DNA from: Rhodoplanes elegans
GTDB taxonomy: Bacteria > Pseudomonadota > Alphaproteobacteria > Rhizobiales > Xanthobacteraceae
NCBI RefSeq assembly: GCF_016653355.1
Contig: NZ_NHSK01000079.1
Coordinates: forward strand, 1 to 47,821
Direction of reading: 5' to 3'
DNA length: 47,821 bases
The position numbers and the translations under genes were made by a program. The notes under the pieces are model-generated. The model had not been told where the DNA came from. It ran no database searches and saw only the letters and a list, made by a program, of their open reading frames with translations. This document shows, one piece after another, positions 3,260 to 43,803 of this stretch (position 1 is its first letter; every line of letters begins with the position of its first letter).

Positions 3260-4888
3260 ATGGCCGCGAACGCCTACGACACCGATCTCGACCGCAACCC
3301 CGCCAACCATCAGCCGCTCACCCCGCTCGTCTTCCTCGAGCGCGCCGCCCGCACCCATCCCGACCACCTCGCCGTGGTGCACGGGCCACTGCGCCGGACG
3401 TATCGGGATTTCCATAAGCGTGCAAAACGGCTCGCCTCGGCGCTGGCGAAACGCGGCATCGGGCGCGGCGACACCGTCTCGGTGATGCTGGCGAACACGC
3501 CGGCCATGCTCGAATGCCACTACGGCGTGCCGATGACGGGCGCGGTGCTGAACACGCTCAACACCCGGCTCGACGCCGCCATCATCGGCTTCTCGCTCGA
3601 CCACGCCGACGCCAAGGTGGTGATCACCGACCGCGAGTTCTCGCGCGTCATGAAGCCCGCCCTGGCGGCCGCCAAGGTGACGCCGCTGGTGATCGACTAC
3701 GATGATCCCGAGTTCACGGGTGCGGGCGAGCGCATCGGCACGCTCGACTACGAGGCGTTCGTCGCCGAAGGCGATACGGATTTCGTGCGAAAGCATCCCG
3801 GCGACGAGTGGGACGCGATCTCGCTGAACTACACGTCGGGCACCACGGGCAACCCGAAGGGCGTCGTCTATCATCACCGCGGCGCCGCGCTGACCGCCAC
3901 CGGCAACGTCGTCAATTGCGGGATGGGCAAGCACCCGGTCTATCTGTGGACCCTGCCGATGTTCCATTGCAACGGCTGGTGCTTCCCGTGGTCGATCTCG
4001 GTGGTCGCCGGCACCCATGTGTGCCTGCGCCAGGTGCGCGCCGGGCTGATGTACGAGCTGATGGCGGAGCACGGTGTCACCCATCTGTGCGGCGCGCCGA
4101 TCGTCATGTCGACGCTCCTCAACGCCGCCGACCACGAGCGCAAGCCGCTCGCCGGCCCGGTGCAGTTCTTCACCGCCGCGGCGCCGCCGCCCGAGTCGGT
4201 GCTGGTCGCCATGAAGGAGGCCGGCTTCGAGGTGACGCATCTCTACGGCCTCACCGAGACCTACGGCCCGTCGGTGATCAACGACTGGCACCGCGACTGG
4301 GACGCCCTGCCGGTCGAGCAGTGGGGCGCCCTGAAGGCGCGCCAGGGCGTGCCCTATGTCGGCCTCGACGACCTCACCGTGATGGACCCGGCCCACATGG
4401 TGCCGGTGCCGGCCGACGGCACGACGCTCGGCGAGGTGATGTTCCGCGGCAACGTCGTGATGAAGGGCTACCTGAAGAACAAGAAGGCGACCGACGAGGC
4501 GTTCGCGGGCGGCTGGTTCCACTCCGGCGATCTCGGCGTGATGCATCCGGACGGCTACGTCCAGCTCAAGGACCGCGCCAAGGACATCATCATCTCGGGC
4601 GGCGAGAACATCTCGTCGATCGAGGTCGAGGACGCGCTCTACAAGCACCCGGCCGTCGCCGCCGTCGCCGTGGTGGCGAAACCCGACGAGAAATGGGGCG
4701 AGACGCCCTGCGCCTTCGTCGAGCTGCGCGAGGGCAAGAGCGCGAGCGCCGAGGATCTGATCACCTGGTGCCGCGAGCACCTCGCCGCCTTCAAGTGCCC
4801 GCGCCACGTGGTGTTCACCGAGATCCCCAAGACCTCCACGGGCAAGATCCAGAAGTTCAAGCTCCGCGACATGGCCAAGGGGGCGTGA
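3260..4888 (+). CDS. Acyl-CoA synthetase (AMP-binding, fatty acid or methylmercaptopropionate type)
   Basis: A 542-residue ANL-superfamily ligase that adenylates a carboxylic acid and transfers it to CoA. Visible motifs are YTSGTTGNPKGV near residue 193, the aromatic-rich TLPMFHCNGWCFPW, HLYGLTETYGP, GWFHSGDLGVMHPDGY, the hinge KDIIISGGENISSIEVEDALY and the C-terminal catalytic STGKIQKFKLR. FHCNGW and the overall length fit the medium/long-chain and DmdB-like group rather than acetyl-CoA synthetases. ATG at 3260 yields the expected amino end. Substrate is not predictable from motifs; a fatty acid or 3-methylmercaptopropionate is possible. Confidence 0.9.
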   Translation: MAANAYDTDLDRNPANHQPLTPLVFLERAARTHPDHLAVVHGPLRRTYRDFHKRAKRLASALAKRGIGRGDTVSVMLANTPAMLECHYGVPMTGAVLNTLNTRLDAAIIGFSLDHADAKVVITDREFSRVMKPALAAAKVTPLVIDYDDPEFTGAGERIGTLDYEAFVAEGDTDFVRKHPGDEWDAISLNYTSGTTGNPKGVVYHHRGAALTATGNVVNCGMGKHPVYLWTLPMFHCNGWCFPWSISVVAGTHVCLRQVRAGLMYELMAEHGVTHLCGAPIVMSTLLNAADHERKPLAGPVQFFTAAAPPPESVLVAMKEAGFEVTHLYGLTETYGPSVINDWHRDWDALPVEQWGALKARQGVPYVGLDDLTVMDPAHMVPVPADGTTLGEVMFRGNVVMKGYLKNKKATDEAFAGGWFHSGDLGVMHPDGYVQLKDRAKDIIISGGENISSIEVEDALYKHPAVAAVAVVAKPDEKWGETPCAFVELREGKSASAEDLITWCREHLAAFKCPRHVVFTEIPKTSTGKIQKFKLRDMAKGA

Positions 4889-4929
4889 GCGGAGGGCCGT
4901 GCGCGGGGGATCGGCAGGGGTTCCGAATT

Positions 4930-5010
4930 CCGCTCGTCCCCGCGAAGGCGGGGACCCAGGGGCCGCACGCCCTGCCGCCCCTGGATGCTCGCCTGCGCGG
5001 GCATGAGCGG
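4930..5010. repeat. Dispersed palindromic repeat (family B), left copy flanking GIY-YIG gene
   Basis: The stretch begins with a hairpin (GTCCCCGC - GAAG - GCGGGGAC) and then has imperfect complementary arms, GGGACCCAGGGGC against GCCCCTGGATGC, closing with a GCGGGCATGAG block. A 34-base inverted copy of its first part lies at 5361-5394 on the other side of the GIY-YIG gene. Confidence 0.75.
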
Positions 5011-5032
5011 AGCTTGGGGCGAGCACTCGCCA

Positions 5033-5332
5033 CTATCCGGCGATCTCGGCCCACAGATCGCGCCATGCCGGATTTTGCTCCTCGACGAGACGGAGCTTCC
5101 AGGCACGATTCTATTTTTTTAATTGCCGCTCGCGCAGAAAGGCCGAGTGTCGGCTACCGTGGCACTCAAACCAGACCAGCGTCTTCACGCCGTACTGACG
5201 GGTGAATCCCGCGACGGCGCCGGTTCTGTGTTCCCAGACACGCCGCACCAGATTGTCAGTCATGCCGACATAGAGTGTTCCGTTGCGGTCACTCGCCAGA
5301 ATGTAGACAAAGAAGGCCTCTGCCCCGACCAA
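5033..5332 (-). pseudogene. GIY-YIG nuclease family protein, interrupted by an in-frame amber codon
   Basis: A small stand-alone GIY-YIG domain protein of about 99 codons. FVYIL and LYVGMT form the GIY...YIG core, followed by DNLVRRVWEHR and a FLRERQLKK motif. A TAG (5113-5111) stands where relatives have a tryptophan in QLKKWxRAWK, and translation continues in the same frame past it as NRAWKLRLVEEQ then NPAWRDLWAEIAG to a second TAG at 5035-5033. One G-to-A change (TGG to TAG) therefore accounts for the break; there is no frameshift. The short form would be 73 residues ending at 5114. The start is uncertain: TTG at 5332 is the nearest fit, since the frame upstream runs into repeat DNA. The gene sits between inverted repeats 4930-4964 and 5361-5394. 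Confidence 0.75.
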
Positions 5333-5360
5333 TCTCGAACGCGGCGACGATGTCGCCCCA

Positions 5361-5394
5361 GGCCCCTGGTCCCCGCCTTCGCGGGGACGAGCGG
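5361..5394. repeat. Inverted copy of repeat family B, right flank of GIY-YIG gene
   Basis: This 34-base block is the reverse complement of 4930-4964 apart from one base (GGACC against GGACCC). Together the copies make an inverted-repeat frame around the GIY-YIG gene. Confidence 0.8.
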
Positions 5395-5439
5395 AGTGTG
5401 CGGCGACGCGTGTCATCCTGATCAGTCGGCCGGAGAGGT

Positions 5440-6471
5440 TCAATCCCCCTTCAGCCCCAGGCGCCGCACCAGGTCGCCCCACTTCTTCTCCTCGCGGTCG
5501 ATGTCGGCGGCGTATTCAGAGGGCGTGCTGGTGAGTGGCGCGCCGCCTTCGGCGCGGATGCGCTTGGCGACGTCCTCGGTCTTCACCAGCGCCTGCAGGG
5601 CGGCGTTGATCTTCGAGACGATCGGGGCCGGCGTGCCGGCCGGCGCCAGCAGGCCGTAGTGCAGGACCGACTCGAAGCCCGGCAGCCCGGACTCGTCGGC
5701 GGTGGGCACGTCGGGCAGCAGCGGAAAGCGCTCGCGGCTCATCACGGCGATCACCCGCAAGGTCTTGGCCTCGATGTTGCCGAGCGCCGGCGCCAGGATC
5801 CCGAAGGCGATCGGCACGTGGCCGCCGACGAGGTCGTTCATCATCGGGCCGGTCCCCTTGTAGGGGACGAGCGTCGCCTCGATGCCGGCGCTCGCCTTGA
5901 ACAGCTCGGCCGTCATGTAGCCGCCGGTGCCCACCGCCGAGGTGCCGATGCTGATCTTGCCGGGCGCCGCCTTGGCGGCGGCGATCACGTCGGCGACCGT
6001 CTTGCCCGGGAAGGACGGATGGGCGAGCAGCACCACCGGCATGGTCGCCATCAGGCCGATCGGGGCGAAGTCCTTGCGCGGGTCGTAGCCGGCCGTGGCG
6101 AACAGACTCGGATTGACCGAGATGGTGCCGGTGTGGCCGAGCAGCAGCGTGTAGCCGTCCGGCGCCGCGCGGGCAACCGCCCGGGTCCCGATATTGCCGC
6201 CGCCGCCGCCGCGGTTGTCGACGATGACCTGCTGGCCGAGCGCGCCGGACAGCTTGTCGGCGACGATGCGGGCCATGGCGTCGTTGCCGCCGCCGGCCGG
6301 GAACGGGACGATCAGGGTGATGGGCCGCGACGGCCAGCCGGCGGCGTCGCCGGCCGCGGGGGTCGCGCCGCCGGACTGCGCCGATGCGGACGGGGCCGGT
6401 CCCGCCAGCGCGAGGCCGGCGAGCGCCAGAATCGCCGCGAGCGCGCGGCGGCGGGGGTGATCGGCACGCAT
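5440..6471 (-). CDS. Bug/TctC-type periplasmic solute-binding protein, copy 1
   Basis: A 343-residue exported binding protein of the tripartite tricarboxylate transporter receptor family. The amino end has two arginine-rich residues blocks, a hydrophobic core and an ASAQS-type signal cleavage region; the mature part starts WPSRPITLIVPFPAGGGNDA, the family signature, with IVDNRGGGGGNIGT, YTLLLGHTGT and VPYKGTGPMMNDLVGGHV following. The ATG at 6471 is preceded by AGGAGCG at good distance. No TctA/TctB membrane genes are beside it, so it is an orphan receptor, common in this family. It is a clear paralogue of the next gene upstream (6862-7881). Ligand unknown; small organic acids are usual. Confidence 0.92.
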   Translation of the reverse strand: MRADHPRRRALAAILALAGLALAGPAPSASAQSGGATPAAGDAAGWPSRPITLIVPFPAGGGNDAMARIVADKLSGALGQQVIVDNRGGGGGNIGTRAVARAAPDGYTLLLGHTGTISVNPSLFATAGYDPRKDFAPIGLMATMPVVLLAHPSFPGKTVADVIAAAKAAPGKISIGTSAVGTGGYMTAELFKASAGIEATLVPYKGTGPMMNDLVGGHVPIAFGILAPALGNIEAKTLRVIAVMSRERFPLLPDVPTADESGLPGFESVLHYGLLAPAGTPAPIVSKINAALQALVKTEDVAKRIRAEGGAPLTSTPSEYAADIDREEKKWGDLVRRLGLKGD

Positions 6472-6590
6472 GGTCGCTCCTGCTTGTTGTTGGTCTGGTT
6501 GGTCTGGTCGTCTTGGTCCGGTGACGCTCGCGCCGCGGCAAGCGGCCACTGCGCAGCGCGAGCAGCCCGACGTTCGGCAGCCCGCCGAAA

Positions 6591-6614
6591 GGCGGTGAAA
6601 ACGTTTTCACCGCC
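6591..6614. promoter_or_regulatory. Perfect 24-base palindrome, LacI-type operator candidate
   Basis: Arms GGCGGTGAAAAC and GTTTTCACCGCC are exact reverse complements with no spacer and a central AACGTT. TGAAAACGTTTTCA resembles operators of LacI-family regulators, which favour a symmetric CG centre. It lies 120 bases upstream of the binding-protein gene ending at 5440. The absence of a loop argues against a terminator. No LacI-family gene is in the window, so the regulator is unknown. Confidence 0.5.
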
Positions 6615-6646
6615 TCCCCAGCAGACTGTCGGAATTCCGATTCTGG

Positions 6647-6762
6647 TCGTTCCGGGGCCGGCCGAAGGCCGGAGCCCGGAACCCATAACCCCTGTGCTTC
6701 CAAAACCAATCGGACTGGGGACATGGATTCCGGACAGCCGCTTCGCGGCTTCCGGAATGACG
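6647..6762. repeat. Dispersed palindromic repeat (family C), copy 1
   Basis: GTTCCGGGGCC...GAACCC at one end and GGATTCCGG...CCGGAATGACG at the other, with internal hairpins GGCCGAAGGCC and GCCGCTTCGCGGC. The same architecture recurs at 14804-14909 and 35738-35843. Confidence 0.75.
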
Positions 6763-35859: not shown

Positions 35860-37158
35860 TCAGGACGCGGCACCGGCCGCGGCCGGGCGCGCCGCTGCGT
35901 GCAGCCGGCGGCCCGTGATCAGCACGGCGGCGACCGAGGCGGCGAGGCAGGCCGTGACGGCGAGGAGCCCGGCATGGGCGCTTCCGGTGTGCTGCAGGCT
36001 GAAGCCGACGACGATCGGCCCGAGAAACCCGCCGAGATTGCCGACCGAATTGATCATCGCGATGCCGCCGGCCGCGGCGGTGCGCTCGAGAAACAGCGGC
36101 GGCACGCCCCAGAACGGTCCGAGCGTCGCGTAGATGCCGACCGTCGCGACCCCGAGCGCGGCGATCGACCAAATGTTCGGCGGCAGCAGAACGGCGGCGA
36201 GGAGGCCGGCGGCGCTCAGCATCGCCGGCAGGGCGACATGCACGACGCGCTCGCCCTTGCGGTCGCTGCGCCGGCCCCAAAACAGCATCGCGGCGGCGCT
36301 GACCGCATAGGGGATCGCGACCAAGAGGCCGACCTGCTCGATCCCGTAGCCGAGCGCCTTGACGAGCTGCGGCAGCCACATGCCGACGCCGTAGAGCCCG
36401 ACCACGATGCCGAAATAGGCGAGGCCGAGCAGCCAGACGCGGGCGTCGGCGAGCGCCGGGCCGAGCGCCGCGTGCAGCCGGGTCTTTGCACCGGCCCGGT
36501 CAGCGGCGAGCCGTGCCGCCACGGTGGCGCGCTCGGCGTCGGAGAGCCAGCGCGCAGTCTTCGGGCCGTCCGGCAGATAGAGCAGCACCGCGACACCGAG
36601 CCCGCAGGCCGGCAGGCCTTCGAGGATGAACAGCCACTGCCAGCCGGACAGGCCGAGAAAGCCGTGGGTCTGCAGGAGCAGGCTCGACAGCGGCGCGCCG
36701 ATCGCGCTCGCCAGCGGCACCGCCATCATGAACAGGCCGACGAAGCGCGCGAGCTTTTCATGCGGGAACCAATAGGTGAGATACAGAATCATGCCGGGGA
36801 GAAAACCGGCCTCGGCGACGCCGAGCAGGAAGCGCAGCACATAAAAGCTCGTCGGCCCCTGGACGAAGGCCATGCCGGCCGAGACGAGCCCCCAGGTGAT
36901 CATGATGCGGGCGATCCACCGTCGCGCCCCGACCCGCTCCAGGATCAGGTTGCTGGGCACCTCGAAGAGAAAGTAGCCGAGAAAGAAGATGCCGGCGCCC
37001 CAGCCGTACACGGCGGCCGACAGCCCCAGCTCGGCATTCATGGTCAGCGCCGCGAACGACACGTTCACCCGGTCGAGAAACGCGACCAGGTAGAGCACCA
37101 TCATGAACGGGATCAGCCGCAGGGCGATTTTTTTGTAGAGGGGGTCGTCGGTGGACAT
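35860..37158 (-). CDS. MFS transporter (anion:cation symporter family)
   Basis: A 432-residue inner-membrane carrier with twelve predicted helices. The amino end LIPFMMVLYLVAFLDRVNVSFAAL with the aspartate-arginine pair, GYFLFEVPSNLILERVGARRWIARIMITWG, and RFLLGVAEAGFLPGMILYLTYWFPH are characteristic of the ACS group (phthalate, glucarate, tartrate and similar carboxylates). ATG at 37158 has GAGGAACG ahead. No catabolic genes adjoin, so the substrate cannot be guessed. Convergent with the ECF41 gene through a family C repeat. Confidence 0.93.
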   Translation of the reverse strand: MSTDDPLYKKIALRLIPFMMVLYLVAFLDRVNVSFAALTMNAELGLSAAVYGWGAGIFFLGYFLFEVPSNLILERVGARRWIARIMITWGLVSAGMAFVQGPTSFYVLRFLLGVAEAGFLPGMILYLTYWFPHEKLARFVGLFMMAVPLASAIGAPLSSLLLQTHGFLGLSGWQWLFILEGLPACGLGVAVLLYLPDGPKTARWLSDAERATVAARLAADRAGAKTRLHAALGPALADARVWLLGLAYFGIVVGLYGVGMWLPQLVKALGYGIEQVGLLVAIPYAVSAAAMLFWGRRSDRKGERVVHVALPAMLSAAGLLAAVLLPPNIWSIAALGVATVGIYATLGPFWGVPPLFLERTAAAGGIAMINSVGNLGGFLGPIVVGFSLQHTGSAHAGLLAVTACLAASVAAVLITGRRLHAAARPAAAGAAS

Positions 37159-37215
37159 GCGCGTTCCTCGACGTCTATCGCGCCGCGAGGGCAATACGCC
37201 CCAGTGGTTTGTGAT

Positions 37216-37545
37216 TCAGCCCGCCAGGCCGAGCACGACCATCAGGGCGCGATCCAGCCGCTCGATAGCCTCGGGGTCCAGCGCTCCGAGGGCGCGGCGG
37301 ATTCGATCGCGGCGGATCGGAGCGACCTTCTCGGTCATGATCTGGGACGTGACACGCAAGCCGTTGGCGACGGTCGCCTCGATCACGGGGCGCAAGCGAG
37401 GGCTGTCGCGAATATCGGACGACATCGGACAGACAAGCACCGTCGTCGTCTCGTCACCGAGGTCGTCGCCCTGAACGACGACGGCCGGGCGCGGCTTTCC
37501 GAGATCGCCCAGCGCGACCATCAGCACGACGTCGCCGCGCTTCAC
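37216..37545 (-). CDS. MazF/PemK-type toxin
   Basis: A 109-residue endoribonuclease-type toxin. MKRGDVVLMVALGDLGKPRPAVVVQGDD is the MazF/PemK amino-terminal strand pattern with the conserved RPAVVVQ; TTTVLVCPMSSD and LRVTSQIMTEKVAPIRRDRI match the family, where the arginine-rich and Thr/Ser residues build the RNase site. The start is GTG at 37545, overlapping the antitoxin TGA by four bases, which gives tight translational coupling. It probably cleaves mRNA when the antitoxin is degraded. Functional state not known. Confidence 0.88.
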   Translation of the reverse strand: MKRGDVVLMVALGDLGKPRPAVVVQGDDLGDETTTVLVCPMSSDIRDSPRLRPVIEATVANGLRVTSQIMTEKVAPIRRDRIRRALGALDPEAIERLDRALMVVLGLAG

Positions 37546-37778
37546 TGCCAGTCGCTCCAGTCGACGGCAGCCTCGATCCAGTCGTCGACGGCGGCGTTGT
37601 CGGGATGCTGCGCCAGCAGGGAGGCCTCCCGGCGAATCTCCTCGCGCACCTTCGGATCACGCAGATCCGGAACCCATCTCTGCACGGGCCGCAGCCCCTC
37701 CGCGCGTAACCGCTCGCGACGCGCCTGCATGCGCTGGCGCGGGCTCTTCGGCGGCGGCTTCTTGACGCGGGCAGGCAT
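37542..37778 (-). CDS. MazE-like antitoxin (DUF3018 type)
   Basis: A 78-residue basic, then acidic protein. The amino half MPARVKKPPPKSPRQRMQARRERLRAEGLRPVQ is likely DNA-contacting and the C-terminal LLAQHPDNAAVDDWIEAAVDWSDWQ is the acidic, tryptophan-rich toxin-binding tail expected of this antitoxin group. ATG at 37778 is preferred, and a 16-base palindrome lies 18 bases upstream, as expected for autorepression. Coupled to the downstream toxin by a four-base overlap. Confidence 0.83.
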   Translation of the reverse strand: MPARVKKPPPKSPRQRMQARRERLRAEGLRPVQRWVPDLRDPKVREEIRREASLLAQHPDNAAVDDWIEAAVDWSDWQ

Positions 37779-37796
37779 GGTTCGGCTCCGGAGACG

Positions 37797-37812
37797 GCGT
37801 AACATGTTACGC
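37797..37812. promoter_or_regulatory. 16-base palindromic operator of the toxin-antitoxin operon
   Basis: GCGTAACA and TGTTACGC are exact reverse complements with no spacer. The palindrome stands 18 bases before the antitoxin ATG, where a repressor would block a promoter. Likely bound by the antitoxin or toxin-antitoxin complex. Confidence 0.7.
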
Positions 37813-37894
37813 ACCGACCCGGTCCGGGGCAAGCTGCTGTCGGCGAACCGAAGCTGGACGCCGTCGCCAGGCTGGGCGCAGCGACGCCCGGCGA

Positions 37895-38140
37895 TCAAGC
37901 TTGCGGGGTGGGGCTCGTCGGAGAACTCGGGATCTCGGTCGGCCCGGACGGCGGCACGCCGAGCGGCTCGCCCGGCGTCGGCGTCTCGGTCGGCCGTGCC
38001 GGTGGAATGCCGATCGGCTCGGACGGCGAGCCCTCGCCCGGCTGCGGCGGCCGCGCCGGCGCCGGATTCGGATCGGCCGGCGTCGGCTCCGGCTCGGCGG
38101 GCGACGCCGGATAGGGCTGGTTCGGAAGCGGAATGGCCAT
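37895..38140 (-). CDS. Proline-rich small protein
   Basis: An 81-residue hydrophilic protein made largely of Pro, Glu, Ser, Thr and Gly: MAIPLPNQPYPASPAEPEPTP, then GVPPSGPTEIPSSPTSPTP. No signal peptide, membrane segment or fold is visible. Similar small proline-rich proteins are common in Rhizobiales genomes, always of unknown function. ATG at 38140 follows GAGGGACC. It lies between the toxin-antitoxin pair and the methyltransferase operon on the opposite strand. Confidence 0.65.
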   Translation of the reverse strand: MAIPLPNQPYPASPAEPEPTPADPNPAPARPPQPGEGSPSEPIGIPPARPTETPTPGEPLGVPPSGPTEIPSSPTSPTPQA

Positions 38141-38196
38141 CGGCGCGGTCCCTCGTTCGAGGGACAAACCCCGAGCCACCGCCACGTTCCGGGAGA

Positions 38197-38261
38197 GTAG
38201 CCCGGGCTGAGCGCAGCGAAGGCCGGGACGACCGTGGCCGAGAGCCCGGATGTCGCTTCGC
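38197..38261. repeat. Dispersed repeat (family E), left copy near the methyltransferase operon
   Basis: GTAGCCCGGGCTGAGCGCAGCGAAGGCCGGGA and then GCCCGGATGTCGCTTCGC resemble the GTAGCCCG...CATCCGGGCTAC element of Bradyrhizobium-type genomes, but the closing CATCCGGGCTAC end is missing here. A fuller copy is at 40845-40924. The 112 bases that follow, up to the methyltransferase start, hold no site I can name. Confidence 0.6.
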
Positions 38262-38373
38262 ACTCTGCTGTCGCCAGTCGGCTACACGCTCGATTTTCCG
38301 AGCAAGTTTTCGGGGCTCCCCTTGCTTTGACGGAACGTTTGATGAACATTGGGGTCGAGGCGACGGGGTGACG

Positions 38374-39549
38374 ATGAAGATTGCTGGATTGTTTGCTGGC
38401 GTCGGCGGGCTGGAGCTCGGGTTGCGGCAAGGCGGCCACGAGAGCGTTGTCCTGTCCGAAGTTTGGGAGCCCGCCCGCGCGGTCTTAGCCGAGCGGTTTA
38501 GCGACGTTCCGAACATCGGTGATGTCGAACGATTGAGATCATTGCCCGCCGATGTCGATCTCCTCACCGCCGGCTTTCCCTGCCAGGACCTGAGCCAAGC
38601 CGGCAAGACCGCCGGGATCAACGGCCGCAAGTCGGGCTTGGTCGGCCATGTTTTTAGGTTGATCGACCAAAGCAGACCGCGCTGGGTCTTGCTGGAAAAC
38701 GTGTCGTTCATGCTGCAACTCGACCGCGGCAGCGCCATGGACAGGCTGGTGTCCGCCTTCGAGGAGCGCGGCTATCGATGGGCGTACCGGGTCGTCAATT
38801 CGCTCGCGTTCCTGCCGCAGCGACGAGAACGTGTCTTCTTCCTCGCGAGTACCGAAGGCGATCCATCGGACGTCCTGCTCGTGGACGAGGTGCAGCCTCG
38901 CGTTCAAGCGACCGATCTCCGTACCCATGCGCACGGCTTCTACTGGACGGAAGGCACGCGCGGCCTGGGCTGGGGACCCGACTGTGTTCCGACGTTGAAG
39001 AATGGCTCGACGGTCGGGATTCCGTCGCCACCCGCAATCCTCCTGCCGAACGGCGAGATCGTCACACCCGATATACGCGATGCGGAGCGGCTCCAGGGGT
39101 TTCGGGCAGACTGGACGAAACCGGCCGCCGCGGTTGGGCGCGCTTCGTTCCGATGGTCGTTGATCGGTAACGCGGTGACCCGACCAGTGGCGGCATGGAT
39201 TGGAAAGCGTTTGACGAAGCCCTCTCGCTTCGATCCTTCGCGGGACTCGGCCGCGTTCACGGGCGTCCGCTGGCCACGAGCCGCCCGTTTCGACGGAGAG
39301 ACCCGGCGCGAAGTTCACATCTCCGCCTTTCCGGCTTGGAAGACCAGACCGCCTCTTCAGGAATTCCTGAAGTACCAGCCGACCTTGTTGTCGGAACGCG
39401 CAACGGCCGGCTTCCTGTCTCGGATCGAGAAGAGTTCGCTGCGTTTCGTGCCCGGGTTCAAGGAACGTGTTCGCTCCCATCTCGACCATGTTCGTGCCAT
39501 CGACCGGTTCGTCGATGGTCGACTTCCCCGCCTCGACGCCGCGGAATGA
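38374..39549 (+). CDS. C5-cytosine DNA methyltransferase (Dcm-type)
   Basis: A 391-residue SAM-dependent enzyme that methylates cytosine C5 in DNA. MKIAGLFAGVGGLELGLRQGG is motif I, GFPCQDLSQAG holds the catalytic Cys70, LLENVSFM is motif VI, PQRRERVFFLAS is motif VIII and LIGNAVTRPVAAWIG is motif X. The target-recognition part between about residues 160 and 240 is short. An extra segment of about 110 residues (280-391) after motif X is not part of the standard fold. ATG at 38374; GTG at 38368 is an alternative. Its TGA overlaps the vsr ATG. Base composition is less GC-extreme than the neighbours, hinting at transfer. Confidence 0.93.
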   Translation: MKIAGLFAGVGGLELGLRQGGHESVVLSEVWEPARAVLAERFSDVPNIGDVERLRSLPADVDLLTAGFPCQDLSQAGKTAGINGRKSGLVGHVFRLIDQSRPRWVLLENVSFMLQLDRGSAMDRLVSAFEERGYRWAYRVVNSLAFLPQRRERVFFLASTEGDPSDVLLVDEVQPRVQATDLRTHAHGFYWTEGTRGLGWGPDCVPTLKNGSTVGIPSPPAILLPNGEIVTPDIRDAERLQGFRADWTKPAAAVGRASFRWSLIGNAVTRPVAAWIGKRLTKPSRFDPSRDSAAFTGVRWPRAARFDGETRREVHISAFPAWKTRPPLQEFLKYQPTLLSERATAGFLSRIEKSSLRFVPGFKERVRSHLDHVRAIDRFVDGRLPRLDAAE

Positions 39550-39968
39550 AGCCACCGGTTTGCGAACGCCCGATCGACCCGAAGCGATCTGCATTGATGC
39601 GTCGCGTGAGACAACGCCGCACCAAACCCGAAGACGACGTTGCAGCCGTGCTCCGCAAGCTGAAATTGGGCTACCGGCGTAACGTGAGATCGCTCCCGGG
39701 ATCTCCCGACTTCGCCAACAAGCGGAGGAAGTGGGCCGTATTCGTGAATGGGTGTTTCTGGCACAGACACGAGGGTTGCGCCCGAACCACGACACCATCA
39801 CGCAATCGGGACTTTTGGGTCGCCAAGTTCGACAGCAACGTCCGAAGGGATGCCATCAAGACCGAGGCGCTCCGAAAGCTGGGCTTTCGTGTCGTGGTCG
39901 TATGGGAGTGCGAGACGATCGATGCGCTCGGGCTCGAACGGCAACTCCTATCGCTGAACTCGCGGTGA
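39546..39968 (+). CDS. vsr: Vsr very-short-patch repair endonuclease
   Basis: A 140-residue mismatch endonuclease that nicks at T:G mismatches arising when 5-methylcytosine deaminates, protecting sites of the linked methyltransferase. MRRVRQRRTKPEDDVAAVLRKL is the amino-terminal helix pattern; LPGSPDFANKRRKWAVFVNGCFWHRHEGC carries the catalytic Asp55, His73 and His75 and zinc ligands among Cys70, His75, Cys78 and Cys122. RDFWVAKFDSNVRRD and GFRVVVVWECE are also typical. Normal length. Start ATG overlaps the methyltransferase stop by four bases; the next gene begins four bases after its stop. Confidence 0.95.
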   Translation: MKPPVCERPIDPKRSALMRRVRQRRTKPEDDVAAVLRKLKLGYRRNVRSLPGSPDFANKRRKWAVFVNGCFWHRHEGCARTTTPSRNRDFWVAKFDSNVRRDAIKTEALRKLGFRVVVVWECETIDALGLERQLLSLNSR

Positions 39969-39972
39969 CGTC

Positions 39973-40806
39973 ATGGCGAAGTCGAAGAACTCCGCGACGA
40001 AACGTTTTTCGACCGAAAACCGATCCCTCACCGAGAACAATATCGGGCGAGAACTTTCATGGGCCGGACCGAGGGATGCGGTCGCAGACGGCAATAGCAC
40101 CGACAAGAAGAACTATGCCGAGTCCTTGTCTCGAGCACTGGCTCAGCGATTTGCAGATGCGCTTCGCAGCTCTTTCTCCGGGATTCTGCCGGACGCCTCC
40201 GGCGCAGGACAGGAATCCAAGGCGCGAACCGGGAAGGGACTGAAGAAGCTCGACGTGAACTACTCCACCATCGAGCTCGGCCTCGGTCTCGGCGTATCGA
40301 TCAAGACCATCAACTTTCGTGACGCGAAAACGAAGCGATACACGAAGAACTACACGCGGGTCGACAACGAGCTGAGAGCCGAGGCCGCCGATTATCACGA
40401 ACGACAACCCTATGCCGTGCTCTGCGCCATCGTCTTCTTACCTTTGGATGCCTGCGACGACGGAAGCTCCGCTCCGTCGAGCTTCGGGCAGGCCGTCCAG
40501 ATTTTCCGCTATCGGGCGGGTCGCGAGAAGCCGGTCGACGATCCGACTTTGTTCGAGCGAATTCTCGTCGGCCTCTATGAGGTGAACCCGGATGACTTCG
40601 GACGTGTCGCGTTCTTCGATGTCATGGACGCACCGCCGCGAACTGGTCGACCTGCATCATTGATGTCGTTCAAAAACGCGATCGAAGCGATCGTCGATGC
40701 CTACGATCAGCGGAACAAAACGACGTTCAAGTGGGCGGAAGGCACGACCGAAGTCGTCGTGCCGCCCGAACCCGAAGCCGAGGACACTGAAGAAGACGGC
40801 GGCTGA
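39973..40806 (+). CDS. Unknown 277-residue protein in Dcm-Vsr operon, candidate restriction endonuclease
   Basis: I do not recognise a named family. The amino 50 residues are polar (RFSTENRSLTENNIGRELSW). Residues 53-68 form a helix, and KKLDVNYSTIELGLGLGVSIKTINF (about 91-115) reads as two strands holding Asp94, Glu101 and Lys111, which could be a divergent PD-(D/E)xK nuclease site with Ser109 in place of the second acid. Then comes a long charged helix (NELRAEAADYHERQ) and a strand YAVLCAIVFLPLD. The Glu/Asp-rich tail ends the protein. ATG at 39973 lies four bases after vsr, so all three genes are one operon. Restriction enzyme for the methyltransferase is the best inference; a modification-dependent or accessory role is possible. 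Confidence 0.6.
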   Translation: MAKSKNSATKRFSTENRSLTENNIGRELSWAGPRDAVADGNSTDKKNYAESLSRALAQRFADALRSSFSGILPDASGAGQESKARTGKGLKKLDVNYSTIELGLGLGVSIKTINFRDAKTKRYTKNYTRVDNELRAEAADYHERQPYAVLCAIVFLPLDACDDGSSAPSSFGQAVQIFRYRAGREKPVDDPTLFERILVGLYEVNPDDFGRVAFFDVMDAPPRTGRPASLMSFKNAIEAIVDAYDQRNKTTFKWAEGTTEVVVPPEPEAEDTEEDGG

Positions 40807-40818
40807 CGCGGGCAATCA

Positions 40819-40955
40819 CTTCACACATCGAGCTTCAACACATCGTAGCCCGCATGAAGCGGCAGCGGAATGCGGGAGCAGTCGTCGACGAGAGCTGGAT
40901 TGCGCTTCGCTCCATCCGGGCTACGGCAGCGCCCGCTTCACACATCCACCTTCAG
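40819..40955. repeat. Family E repeat between duplicated lepA-tail sequences
   Basis: The element GTAGCCCGCATGAAGC...GCTCCATCCGGGCTAC is at 40845-40924. On either side lie two direct repeats, 40819-40838 and 40936-40955, matching at 17 of 20 bases; the second is the true 3' end of lepA (minus strand reading LKVDV-stop) and the first reads LKLDV-stop in the same style. This looks like a displaced copy of the lepA tail. Confidence 0.75.
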
Positions 40956-42749
40956 CGCGGCAATAAAAGCCTCCTGCGGGATGTCGACCTTGCCGAACTG
41001 GCGCATGCGCTTCTTGCCCTCCTTCTGCTTATCGAGGAGTTTTCGTTTGCGCGTGATGTCGCCGCCGTAGCACTTGGCCGTCACGTCCTTGCGGAACGCC
41101 CGCACCGTCTCGCGGGCGATGATCTTCGCCCCGATCGCCGCCTGGATCGGCACCTGGAACATGTGCGGCGGGATCAGCTCCTTCAGCTTCTCGCACATCG
41201 CGCGGCCGCGCCCCTCGGCGCGGGTGCGATGAACCAGCATGGAGAGCGCGTCGACCGGCTCGGCGTTGACCAGGATCGACATCTTCACGAGGTCGGCCTC
41301 GCGGTAGTCGGTGAGGTGATAATCGAACGAGGCGTAGCCCTTCGACACCGACTTCAGGCGATCATAAAAGTCGAACACCACCTCGTTGAGCGGCAGCTCG
41401 TACTTCACCATGGCGCGGTTGCCCACATAGGTGAGCTCGGTCTGCACGCCGCGCCGGTCCTGGCACAGCTTCAAGACGCTGCCGAGATACTCGTCCGGCG
41501 TCATGATGGTGGCCTGGATCCACGGCTCGTGGATCTCCTTGATCTTCACCACGTCCGGCATGTCGACCGGATTGTGGATCTCGATCTCGGACCCGTCGGT
41601 CATGTAGATCTTGTAGATCACGCTCGGCGCGGTGGCGATCAGGTCGAGATTGAACTCGCGCTCCAGCCGCTCCTGGATGATCTCGAGATGCAGGAGACCG
41701 AGGAAGCCGCAGCGGAAGCCGAAGCCGAGCGCCGCCGACGTCTCCATCTCGAACGTGAAGCTCGCGTCGTTGAGCCGCAGCTTTCCCATCGCGGCGCGCA
41801 GATCCTCGAACTGCGCCGCGTCCACGGGGAACAGGCCGCAGAACACCACCGGGATCGCGGGGCGGAAGCCCGGCAGCGCCTTCGCGGTCGGCTTGCGATC
41901 GTCCGTGATGGTGTCGCCGACGCGGGTGTCGGCCACCTCCTTGATCGACGCCGTGATGAAGCCGATCTCGCCGGGGCCTAACGCGTCCTTCTCCTGCATC
42001 TTGGGCGTGAACACGCCGACGCGGTCGACCTCGTAGGTCGCGTCGGTGCCCATCATGAGCACCTTCTGGCCCTTCTTGATGGCGCCGTCGACGACGCGCA
42101 GCAGCACGACGACACCCAGATAGGCGTCGTACCAGCTATCGACCAGCAGGGCCTTGAGCGGCGCGTCGGGGTCGCCCTTGGGGGCCGGCAGGCGGGTGAC
42201 GATCGCCTCCAGCACGTCCGGGATGCCGATGCCGGTCTTGGCCGAGATCTGCAGCGCGTCCGACGCATCGAGGCCGATCACGTCCTCGATCTGCTGCTTC
42301 ACCTTGTCGGGCTCGGCAGCCGGCAGGTCGACCTTGTTGAGGACCGGCACGACCTCGTGGTTGTTGTCGAGCGCCTGGTAGACGTTGGCCAGCGTCTGCG
42401 CCTCGACGCCCTGGCTGGCGTCGACGACCAGCAGCGAGCCCTCGCAGGCGGCGAGCGAGCGGTTGACCTCGTAGGCGAAGTCGACATGCCCGGGGGTGTC
42501 GATGAGGTTGAGGACGTAGTCCTTGCCGTCCTTCGCCCGGTAGGCGAGCCGCACCGTCTGGGCCTTGATGGTGATGCCGCGCTCGCGCTCGATGTCCATC
42601 GAGTCGAGCACCTGCTCGCGCCCCTGCATCTCGCGCTCGGAGAGCGCCCCGGTGAGTTGGATCAGCCGGTCGGCGAGCGTCGACTTCCCGTGGTCGATAT
42701 GGGCCACGATGGAGAAGTTGCGGATGCGGTCGATGGTCTGGGTGGTCAT
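40938..42749 (-). CDS. lepA: Elongation factor 4 (back-translocase LepA)
   Basis: A 603-residue translational GTPase of the membrane-associated type. G-domain motifs are [15 protein letters not shown] (G1), GITIKAQT (G2), [10 protein letters not shown] (G3), NKVDLP (G4) and the SAKTG region (G5); [34 protein letters not shown] and the C-terminal domain ending in [21 protein letters not shown] are diagnostic of LepA/EF-4. ATG at 42749 gives the conserved amino end. A displaced copy of its last codons lies downstream at 40819-40838. Usual single-copy housekeeping gene. Confidence 0.98.
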
Positions 42750-42819
42750 GCGCCGGGGGATATCATCCGTCCCGAACGGCGGCAAGGCGAGGCGGGGGGC
42801 GCAGGGGGGCGCGGCCTGC

Positions 42820-42984
42820 CTTCCCTCGCCCCGCTTGCGGGGAGAGGGTGGCTCGGACCGCAGGTCCGAGTCGGGTGAGGGGGCGTCTCCCAGGCGCCGA
42901 GACTCGCGGAAACGCCCCCTCACCCGGATTTCCCGCCTGCGGCGTGAAATCCGACCTCTCCCCGCACGCGGGGAGAGATGAAAG
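42820..42984. repeat. Dispersed composite repeat (family A)
   Basis: A 165-base block with several nested hairpins: CCTCGCCCCGC-TTGC-GGGGAGAGGG at one end, GGGTGAGGGGGCG...CGCCCCCTCACCC in the middle, and CCTCTCCCCGC-ACG-CGGGGAGAG at the other. This layout is a well-known alphaproteobacterial intergenic element. It fills most of the gap between lepA and the amidotransferase gene. Confidence 0.75.
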
Positions 42985-43011
42985 AGGCGTGGCTCCGGCC
43001 GGCGCGGCGCC

Positions 43012-43803
43012 CTACTCGGCGGCCAGCGCGTTGGCGACCGCGAAGGGCTGCACCTCGACCCGGCGGCCGGCGCGGGCGACGACGACGTGGTCGGGCGCCA
43101 CGGCGTGCCAGCCGGTGCGGTCCTCGTCGAGCGGCTCGGAGACGCACACCACGTCCTGGCCGGAGGCCCGGTAGTAGAGCGTGTTGGCCTGGTCGTTGAC
43201 GGCGTAGCGGAAGGCGTAGAGGTCGCGTCCGTTGGCGATCGCCGCGGTGAAGCGCAACGGGTCGGCGCGGCCCTCCTCGCGGGTCATCTCGGTGATGGCC
43301 GCCATGGTGCGGGCCGTGGCGCCGATCGGATCGCGGTCGAGCCCGGCGCCCAGCATGGCCAGGAACACGGCCTCGGAGTCGGTGGTGCCGGCGCGCGAGC
43401 CGTAGAGCTCGTCCGGGATCAGCCCCTCGACCCGCCGGCGGATGCGGTTCCAGTCGCCGATGAAGCCGTTGTGCATGAACAGCCAGTTGCCGCAGGCGAA
43501 CGGGTGGCAGTTCGGCCGGGTGATCGGCGTGCCGGTCGCCGAGCGCACATGGGCGAAGAACAGGTGCGACTGGATGTGGCGGCAGAGATAGCGCAGGTTC
43601 TCGTCCGACCACGCCGGCCGCACCTCGCGGTAGAGGCCGGGCTCCGGGTGGTCGGCGTACCAGCCGAGCCCGAAGCCGTCGCCATGGGTGGCGGCGGTGG
43701 ATTCCAGGGCGTGGATGCTTTGCGCGACGAGCGAGCGGGCGGGCGCCGTGACGTAGTGTTCGAGTGCGATCGTCTCGCCCCGATAGGCGATCCAGCGGCA
43801 CAT
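43012..43803 (-). CDS. Class II glutamine amidotransferase (YafJ/EgtC-like)
   Basis: A 263-residue N-terminal-nucleophile hydrolase. Met1 is followed by Cys2 (MCRWIAYRG), the catalytic nucleophile once the methionine is removed. [41 protein letters not shown] and [15 protein letters not shown] are the canonical blocks of class II glutaminase domains, shared by YafJ, EgtC and related enzymes. No synthase domain is attached and the partner enzyme is unknown. ATG at 43803 has AAGGAG upstream. A role in ergothioneine synthesis would need egtB/egtD nearby, which is not the case. Confidence 0.92.

Follow-up and report, generated by a model that had tools for sequence, protein, structure and literature searches.

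Several described systems join a 5-methylcytosine (m5C) DNA methyltransferase to the mismatch endonuclease Vsr. In the XorII system of Xanthomonas oryzae and the NgoMIV-type systems of Neisseria, an m5C methyltransferase gene, vsr and a restriction endonuclease gene share one locus. The Dcm-Vsr pair of E. coli is not known to include a restriction gene. The E. coli dcm and vsr genes lie in one operon (PMC12907096, in the part available), and the available part of PMC4853030 names the XorII methyltransferase and endonuclease in its text and cites a reference whose title mentions a vsr homologue. MORC and paraMORC neighbourhoods likewise combine an m5C methyltransferase with an endonuclease of the Vsr superfamily (PMC2292703, in the part available).

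A related block occupies positions 38374-40806 of the window, the whole stretch of 47,821 nucleotides analysed here. It is one tightly packed unit with all three reading frames on the + strand: M (38374..39549), a C5-cytosine DNA methyltransferase of 391 aa identified by profile matches; V (39546..39968), a Vsr mismatch endonuclease of 140 aa identified by a curated model match and an alignment to 1cw0; and R (39973..40806), a putative Type II restriction endonuclease of 277 aa, so assigned from its linkage to methyltransferases and its invariant residues. As in E. coli, the methyltransferase gene is followed by vsr in one operon. We consider it highly probable that the three genes make up a complete Type II restriction-modification operon whose restriction enzyme is uncharacterised, harboured by a Rhodoplanes-like alphaproteobacterium. 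The layout described in a sequence-only reading of this DNA is seen in the letters themselves: the M stop and the vsr start overlap by four bases, ATGA being common to both, and the third gene begins four bases past the vsr stop, the spacer CGTC preceding its ATG. The lower G+C content claimed there is also borne out, at 61.2% for the cassette (M 63.3%, V 60.0%, R 58.5%) and 70.1% for the window as a whole. Just 4 of 227 sliding windows of cassette length are equally low in G+C, and all 4 overlap the cassette; the lowest value among 202 same-sized windows outside it is 67.2%. The gene arrangement is not a product of chance, because Rhodoplanes tepidamans and two named Rhodopseudomonas have these genes in the same M-V-R order, with M and R at least 75% identical and V about 68% identical or more.

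The cassette is followed by lepA on the opposite (-) strand (40941-42746). Just upstream, also on the - strand, lie genes for a PemK/MazF-like toxin and a MazE-like antitoxin (37216-37799; PF02452, 2e-18; PF11455, 6.4e-21). Unlike the MORC and paraMORC neighbourhoods, the M-V-R unit contains no recognised GHKL ATPase or helicase gene, and neither was found among the reading frames listed for 36000-43500, some of which were profile-scanned; its neighbours are the PemK/MazE-like pair and lepA. A stretch homologous to the PemK/MazE-like pair is also present near lepA in G398, a genome without the cassette. In G398 and G400, where the cassette is absent from the lepA site, part of the lepA 3' end is present a second time, with about 89% identity, some 500 bases downstream of the gene (L040, 2770-2897; L041, 12685-12857).

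M is readily classified. It matches Pfam DNA_methylase (9.6e-45), TIGR00675 dcm, at 146.9 bits against a cut-off of 100.65, and the PADLOC model MTase_II PDLC03324, which covers almost the whole protein (residues 1-382; E 7.6e-186). A separate methyltransferase gene with an intact family match, as expected of a Type II system, is therefore present. The nearest solved structure by sequence is M.HhaI (E 9e-20, residues 3-158), and stretches that we take to be the PCQ, ENV, QRR and GNA motifs can be read by eye. The match to the DNA cytosine methylase model PRK10458 reaches 37.7 bits only, against a cut-off of 710. The earlier label "Dcm-type" thus holds for the m5C enzyme class, and nothing supports a CCWGG target. 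V matches TIGR00632 vsr (114.6 bits, cut-off 97.85), and its residues 13-123 align to E. coli Vsr 1cw0 (E 1.4e-21) with PDF, GCFWHxH and WEC stretches in common, so that both the curated Vsr model and the conserved catalytic and zinc stretches are represented. The catalytic residues presumably lie within these stretches.

The identity of R rests largely on the company it keeps. Searches from R alone found 22 distinct loci outside the window: 9 on genome contigs, 6 on plasmid records, 4 on viral contigs and 3 new among 396 genomes from the phylum of G407. Each locus is counted once; L010, L021 and L044 are the window itself, L011, L022, L045, L046 and L049 repeat L001, L006, L001, L003 and L002, and L141-L144 repeat L017-L020. 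R copies reached only via M (L047, L048, L050, L165, L167, L168) stand outside the 22. A methyltransferase adjoins R at 18 of the 22 loci, an adjacent partner gene conserved with methyltransferases being a mark of Type II systems. The homologues of R do not, then, lie mostly away from methyltransferases, an outcome that the sequence-only reading had named as speaking against its own proposal. Ten of the 18 partners are relatives of M (L001-L008, L027, L028). The other 8 are predicted N6-adenine methylases of about 550 aa that precede R (L012, L013, L015, L016, L017-L020), overlapping it by 14 bases in four annotated plasmid cases. With 8 of 18 partners of this kind, R follows methylation of either chemistry and not M alone. 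Among the remaining four loci, L014 has no methyltransferase detected within 6 kb of R, L009 and the match in G1051 lie at contig ends, and one is an unopened Pseudonocardia record. The pairwise identities of M and R co-vary (r=0.71 over 17 M-R pairs), and none of 5000 permutations gave a value as high. In the sequence retrieved for L004, L006 and L007, R stands with no detected vsr.

The R family is rare and patchy. The window's genome has a single copy of the gene. That genome is the one holder among 398 searched in the phylum and again among 397 in the order, whereas 2 of 6 genomes of the genus have it; R stands beside M in 7 of 296 genomes of the family. The nearest named relative is in Rhodoplanes tepidamans, with R 94% and M 95% identical. 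Members were found in Pseudomonadota, Actinomycetota and Planctomycetota. Plasmids and viral contigs also carry the family; in the latter a scan with the single R sequence found none and an alignment search found 4. Phage records gave no R match at E<=1e-5.

Reference libraries do not name this protein. R has no match in Pfam, NCBIfam or PADLOC at E<=1 and none among PDB sequences, one chain reaching E 1.5. An alignment of 14 R members, A1, which spans both clades and L014 and includes five plasmid relatives, gave chance-level matches only against Pfam, NCBIfam and PADLOC, and nothing in a profile search of PDB sequences. The best restriction match within A1 is that of one member to the PADLOC REase_II model (E 0.019), so R falls under no profile of a named restriction enzyme family in Pfam, NCBIfam or PADLOC. 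Its absence from these libraries and from PDB sequences sets the R family apart from the XorII and NgoMIV systems. Literature searches, run by terms other than accession numbers, showed no description of the protein among the papers listed.

Conservation within the family is pronounced. Eleven residues (E81, K91, D94, S109, K111, D117, K125, N126, E137, H142, P146) are invariant in all 14 members of A1, and each of the 17 m5C-partnered R proteins keeps the same 11 unchanged. The PD-(D/E)XK nucleases include an S-x-K variant with a relocated Glu, represented by Cfr10I and NgoMIV. Read by eye, R may fit this pattern: E81, D94, S109-x-K111 and E137 form a candidate active site resembling the variant PD-(D/E)XK site. 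The canonical (D/E)-x-K is absent, position 109 being Ser in every member (14/14 in A1, 17/17 m5C-partnered). In resemblance to the Cfr10I and NgoMIV enzymes, R combines an invariant D94, S109-x-K111 and the downstream E137 with a predicted helix-strands-helix-strand order. Unlike them, it has a D-to-K spacing of 17 residues, and R shows no sequence match or significant structure match. The D-to-K spacing of Cfr10I and NgoMIV is far longer than 17 residues.

Predicted structures bear on this assignment. An AlphaFold model of the window's R (pLDDT 74) contains a long helix, strands 80-83, 95-99 and 103-112, a helix at 125-144 and a strand at 149-157, and this order of helix, three strands, helix and strand is PD-(D/E)XK-like. 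A second model, of a viral-contig relative (pLDDT 83), agrees in the later elements. Both are ill-defined just before D94, and the low-confidence stretch of the second spans the matching Asp. Foldseek searches with both models against PDB and BFVD gave no match at E<=0.001. The weak matches comprise SfsA, YaeQ, XisH and phage exonucleases mixed with unrelated chains such as ATP synthase and KaiC; the match to SfsA has E 0.026 and TM 0.25 with the first model and E 0.75 with the second. SfsA, YaeQ and XisH have PD-(D/E)XK folds, and the phage exonucleases are likewise nuclease-like. Because Foldseek gave nothing significant, a PD-(D/E)XK fold is suggested by the models, not proven. Taken together, R is very probably a DNA-cutting enzyme of a family that none of the searched reference libraries contains.

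Viewed from the methyltransferase, the slot that R fills is variable. A set of 37 loci with M or a relative of M was assembled: 17 come from the family (of 296 genomes, the window included; E<=1e-80, taking 1500 bases of flank), another 10 from 199 genomes in the phylum of G406 (E<=1e-60) and the last 10 from plasmid records (E<=1e-40). The Rhizobium phaseoli plasmid record was placed from search matches, and the M of L154, another plasmid record, aligns in pieces. R alone adjoins M at 11 loci, R together with a protein termed EAK at 1, EAK alone at 7 and neither at 18. R is thus optional from M's side, adjoining 12 of 37 M loci, and beside M and V relatives the slot is filled by R, by EAK, which is unrelated to it, or by an HNH nuclease, or stays empty. 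The HNH_2 nuclease gene lies convergent to the M relative at L056 (E 1.1e-8), a locus counted among the 18. EAK proteins (about 280-317 aa, with a conserved LEAKACMTAH) lie beside M relatives at L052-L055, L151, L169 and L175; vsr is often near, with none detected in L169 and L175. PADLOC gives no match to them at E<=1, and their matches in Pfam and the PDB do not rise above chance level. Homology between R and EAK was considered and is not supported (hhalign probability 7%). A distant EAK relative occurs on a haloarchaeal plasmid (L152).

Such natural swaps beside M and V support the view of R as a restriction enzyme. They also bear on the target of M, whose presumed target-recognition stretch was set by eye at residues 165-250. 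In the EAK-partnered L052-L055, 60-64 of 86 residues in this stretch are identical to the window's, and in the more distant copies compared 38-56 of 85 or 86 are. Because the presumed target-recognition stretch stays alike, the sequences hint that the target of M might be constant across partner swaps.

Loss and exchange of R are visible among close relatives. In G399, a genome of the window's genus, the lepA site likewise holds M and V, which share about 72% identity each with the window's copies. R is missing from that site even at E 10 and from the rest of the genome. R was likely lost in G399, though it may never have arrived there. This arrangement, M and V kept and R absent, is that of L051/L042. 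A different pattern is seen in L047 and L050, from two genomes of the genus group g355, which contains two named Rhodopseudomonas: M is 95% identical between them, R only 44%. At the nucleotide level M and almost the whole of V align at 87.6% identity, as far as base 3043 of L050, which lies in the last 55 bases of vsr; the alignment collapses inside R and recovers to 95% in lepA. The control pair L048/L047 aligns across the whole cassette at 83%, and the R of L050 is an open frame of 285 aa. These alignments indicate that R is exchanged in place beside a conserved M.

Partners can also be stacked. L005, on a 544 kb contig of Planctomycetota MAG-33, packs M (3606-4775), EAK (4772-5572), vsr (about 5583-6050) and R (5995-6726) closely on one strand, as delimited by reading frames and searches. 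This is a single case among the 37 M loci; an EAK search of 14 genomes in the order of L005 gave one other match, G1474, which has no R beside it.

Further genes accompany some of these loci. A DUF262-like gene and a HEPN gene are annotated after R on a Bradyrhizobium plasmid (L013, 6679-8515), and DUF262-related sequences (24-29% identity) lie near M in L057, L058, L060 and L153. The Bosea plasmids L146 and L149 carry an M relative, with vsr and R not detected; both share a neighbourhood with three hypothetical genes on the upstream side and, downstream, a cold-shock gene and further hypothetical genes. On a Mycolicibacterium arabiense plasmid (L150, 3965-7248), a longer m5C methyltransferase gene overlaps by four bases a gene annotated as an Eco57I-type methylase.

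A search for the target through site avoidance used 400 kb each from G1253 and G402, which hold R, and from G398 and G1169, in which no R was found. Among 35 6-base palindromes with enough counts and 227 degenerate palindromes, none was clearly depleted in both R holders only, and the best differences between holders and non-holders are slight. The test does detect strong avoidance, as with GGATCC (0.02 of expected) and ACCGGT (0.03) in G398. That genome, a Rhodoplanes relative (L121-L140, 400 kb), is also depleted in CACGTG (0.10) and CAGCTG (0.13 of expected), suggesting long-lived restriction systems for these four sites in G398. Isoschizomers that use m5C or m6A supplied four candidate targets for the window's system, GTCGAC (SalI/HgiDII-like), CTCGAG, ATCGAT and CGATCG, as did a weak match of the adenine-methylase partner of R to M.BseCI (E 5.2e-7); the palindrome counts gave none of them support. 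Of 1774 cases, about 50% are reported to show avoidance, and systems acquired recently show less of it (PMC4687349, in the part available), so the negative result weighs little against restriction. By analogy, the missing avoidance may reflect a recent acquisition of the system.

Other accounts of the cassette have to be set against these data. The operon might be decaying or domesticated, M and V mattering as epigenetic and repair genes while R is inactive or on its way out. The same-genus relative that keeps M and V at the lepA site without R would fit this, as would the missing site avoidance, and a solitary m5C methyltransferase of Caulobacter is functionally tied to a Vsr-like protein encoded by a non-adjacent gene (PMC12907096, in the part available). 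The window's R is nevertheless full length and keeps every invariant residue, and R and M stay 94% and 95% identical to the R. tepidamans copies, which makes decay unlikely. It is distinctly improbable that R is an accessory of the methyltransferase or of Vsr, whether regulator, specificity helper or repair partner, rather than a cutter. The pairing of R with two unrelated methyltransferase classes, its occurrence without a detected vsr, its replacement by the HNH nuclease or the EAK protein at other loci and its retention of the D...SxK...E pattern all speak against such a role, although M-V pairs do exist without R, the fold search gave nothing significant and cutting by R is a prediction.

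An R that acts as a methylation-dependent, Type IV-like nuclease on modified DNA, and that stands with methyltransferases by chance, is hardly credible. R and M belong to one operon, and an active M would presumably be incompatible with a cutter of M-modified sites.

The preferred reading stays that of a complete Type II restriction-modification operon, and the sequence-only proposal of a restriction-modification or defence cassette, with the restriction enzyme as its third gene, gains support from the linkage of R to methyltransferases, the invariant candidate catalytic residues and the swaps in the slot. From these we infer DNA cutting by R, a target shared with M, a PD-(D/E)XK fold and a part in phage defence. 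In operation, M would mark one cytosine in a short target across the genome, and R, a small and probable PD-(D/E)XK endonuclease, would cut the same target when unmarked, as in phage or plasmid DNA. Vsr would mend the T:G mismatches that arise from deamination of 5-methylcytosine. With M first, and V and R following in frames that overlap or nearly touch, this arrangement might favour production of the protector before or with the cutter.

A broader scheme can be offered tentatively, as a possibility we do not favour strongly. The M-V pair might form a protective core that is stable and keeps its target, beside which unrelated cutters (R, EAK, HNH) are swapped or stacked; the R family might be protected by m5C or by N6-adenine methylation of the same target; and in the M-EAK-V-R operon of L005 a single methyltransferase might protect one site against two cutters unrelated to each other. 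NaeI and NgoMIV share a target, and isospecific systems can have unrelated restriction enzymes. Because such systems are already established, swaps alone amount to no new principle. NaeI and NgoMIV are placed in different branches (PMC4081073, in the part available).

Type II systems as such are well known. The novelty appears to lie in the restriction enzyme family, in its pairing with two methylation chemistries, and in the swapping and stacking seen beside related methyltransferases. The natural swaps offer a ready set for testing how target specificity holds while the cutter is replaced, comprising related M and Vsr with a different cutter, the same cutter family with different methylation, and two putative cutters per operon. 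They also bear on whether loss of R leaves M and Vsr as a stable remnant.
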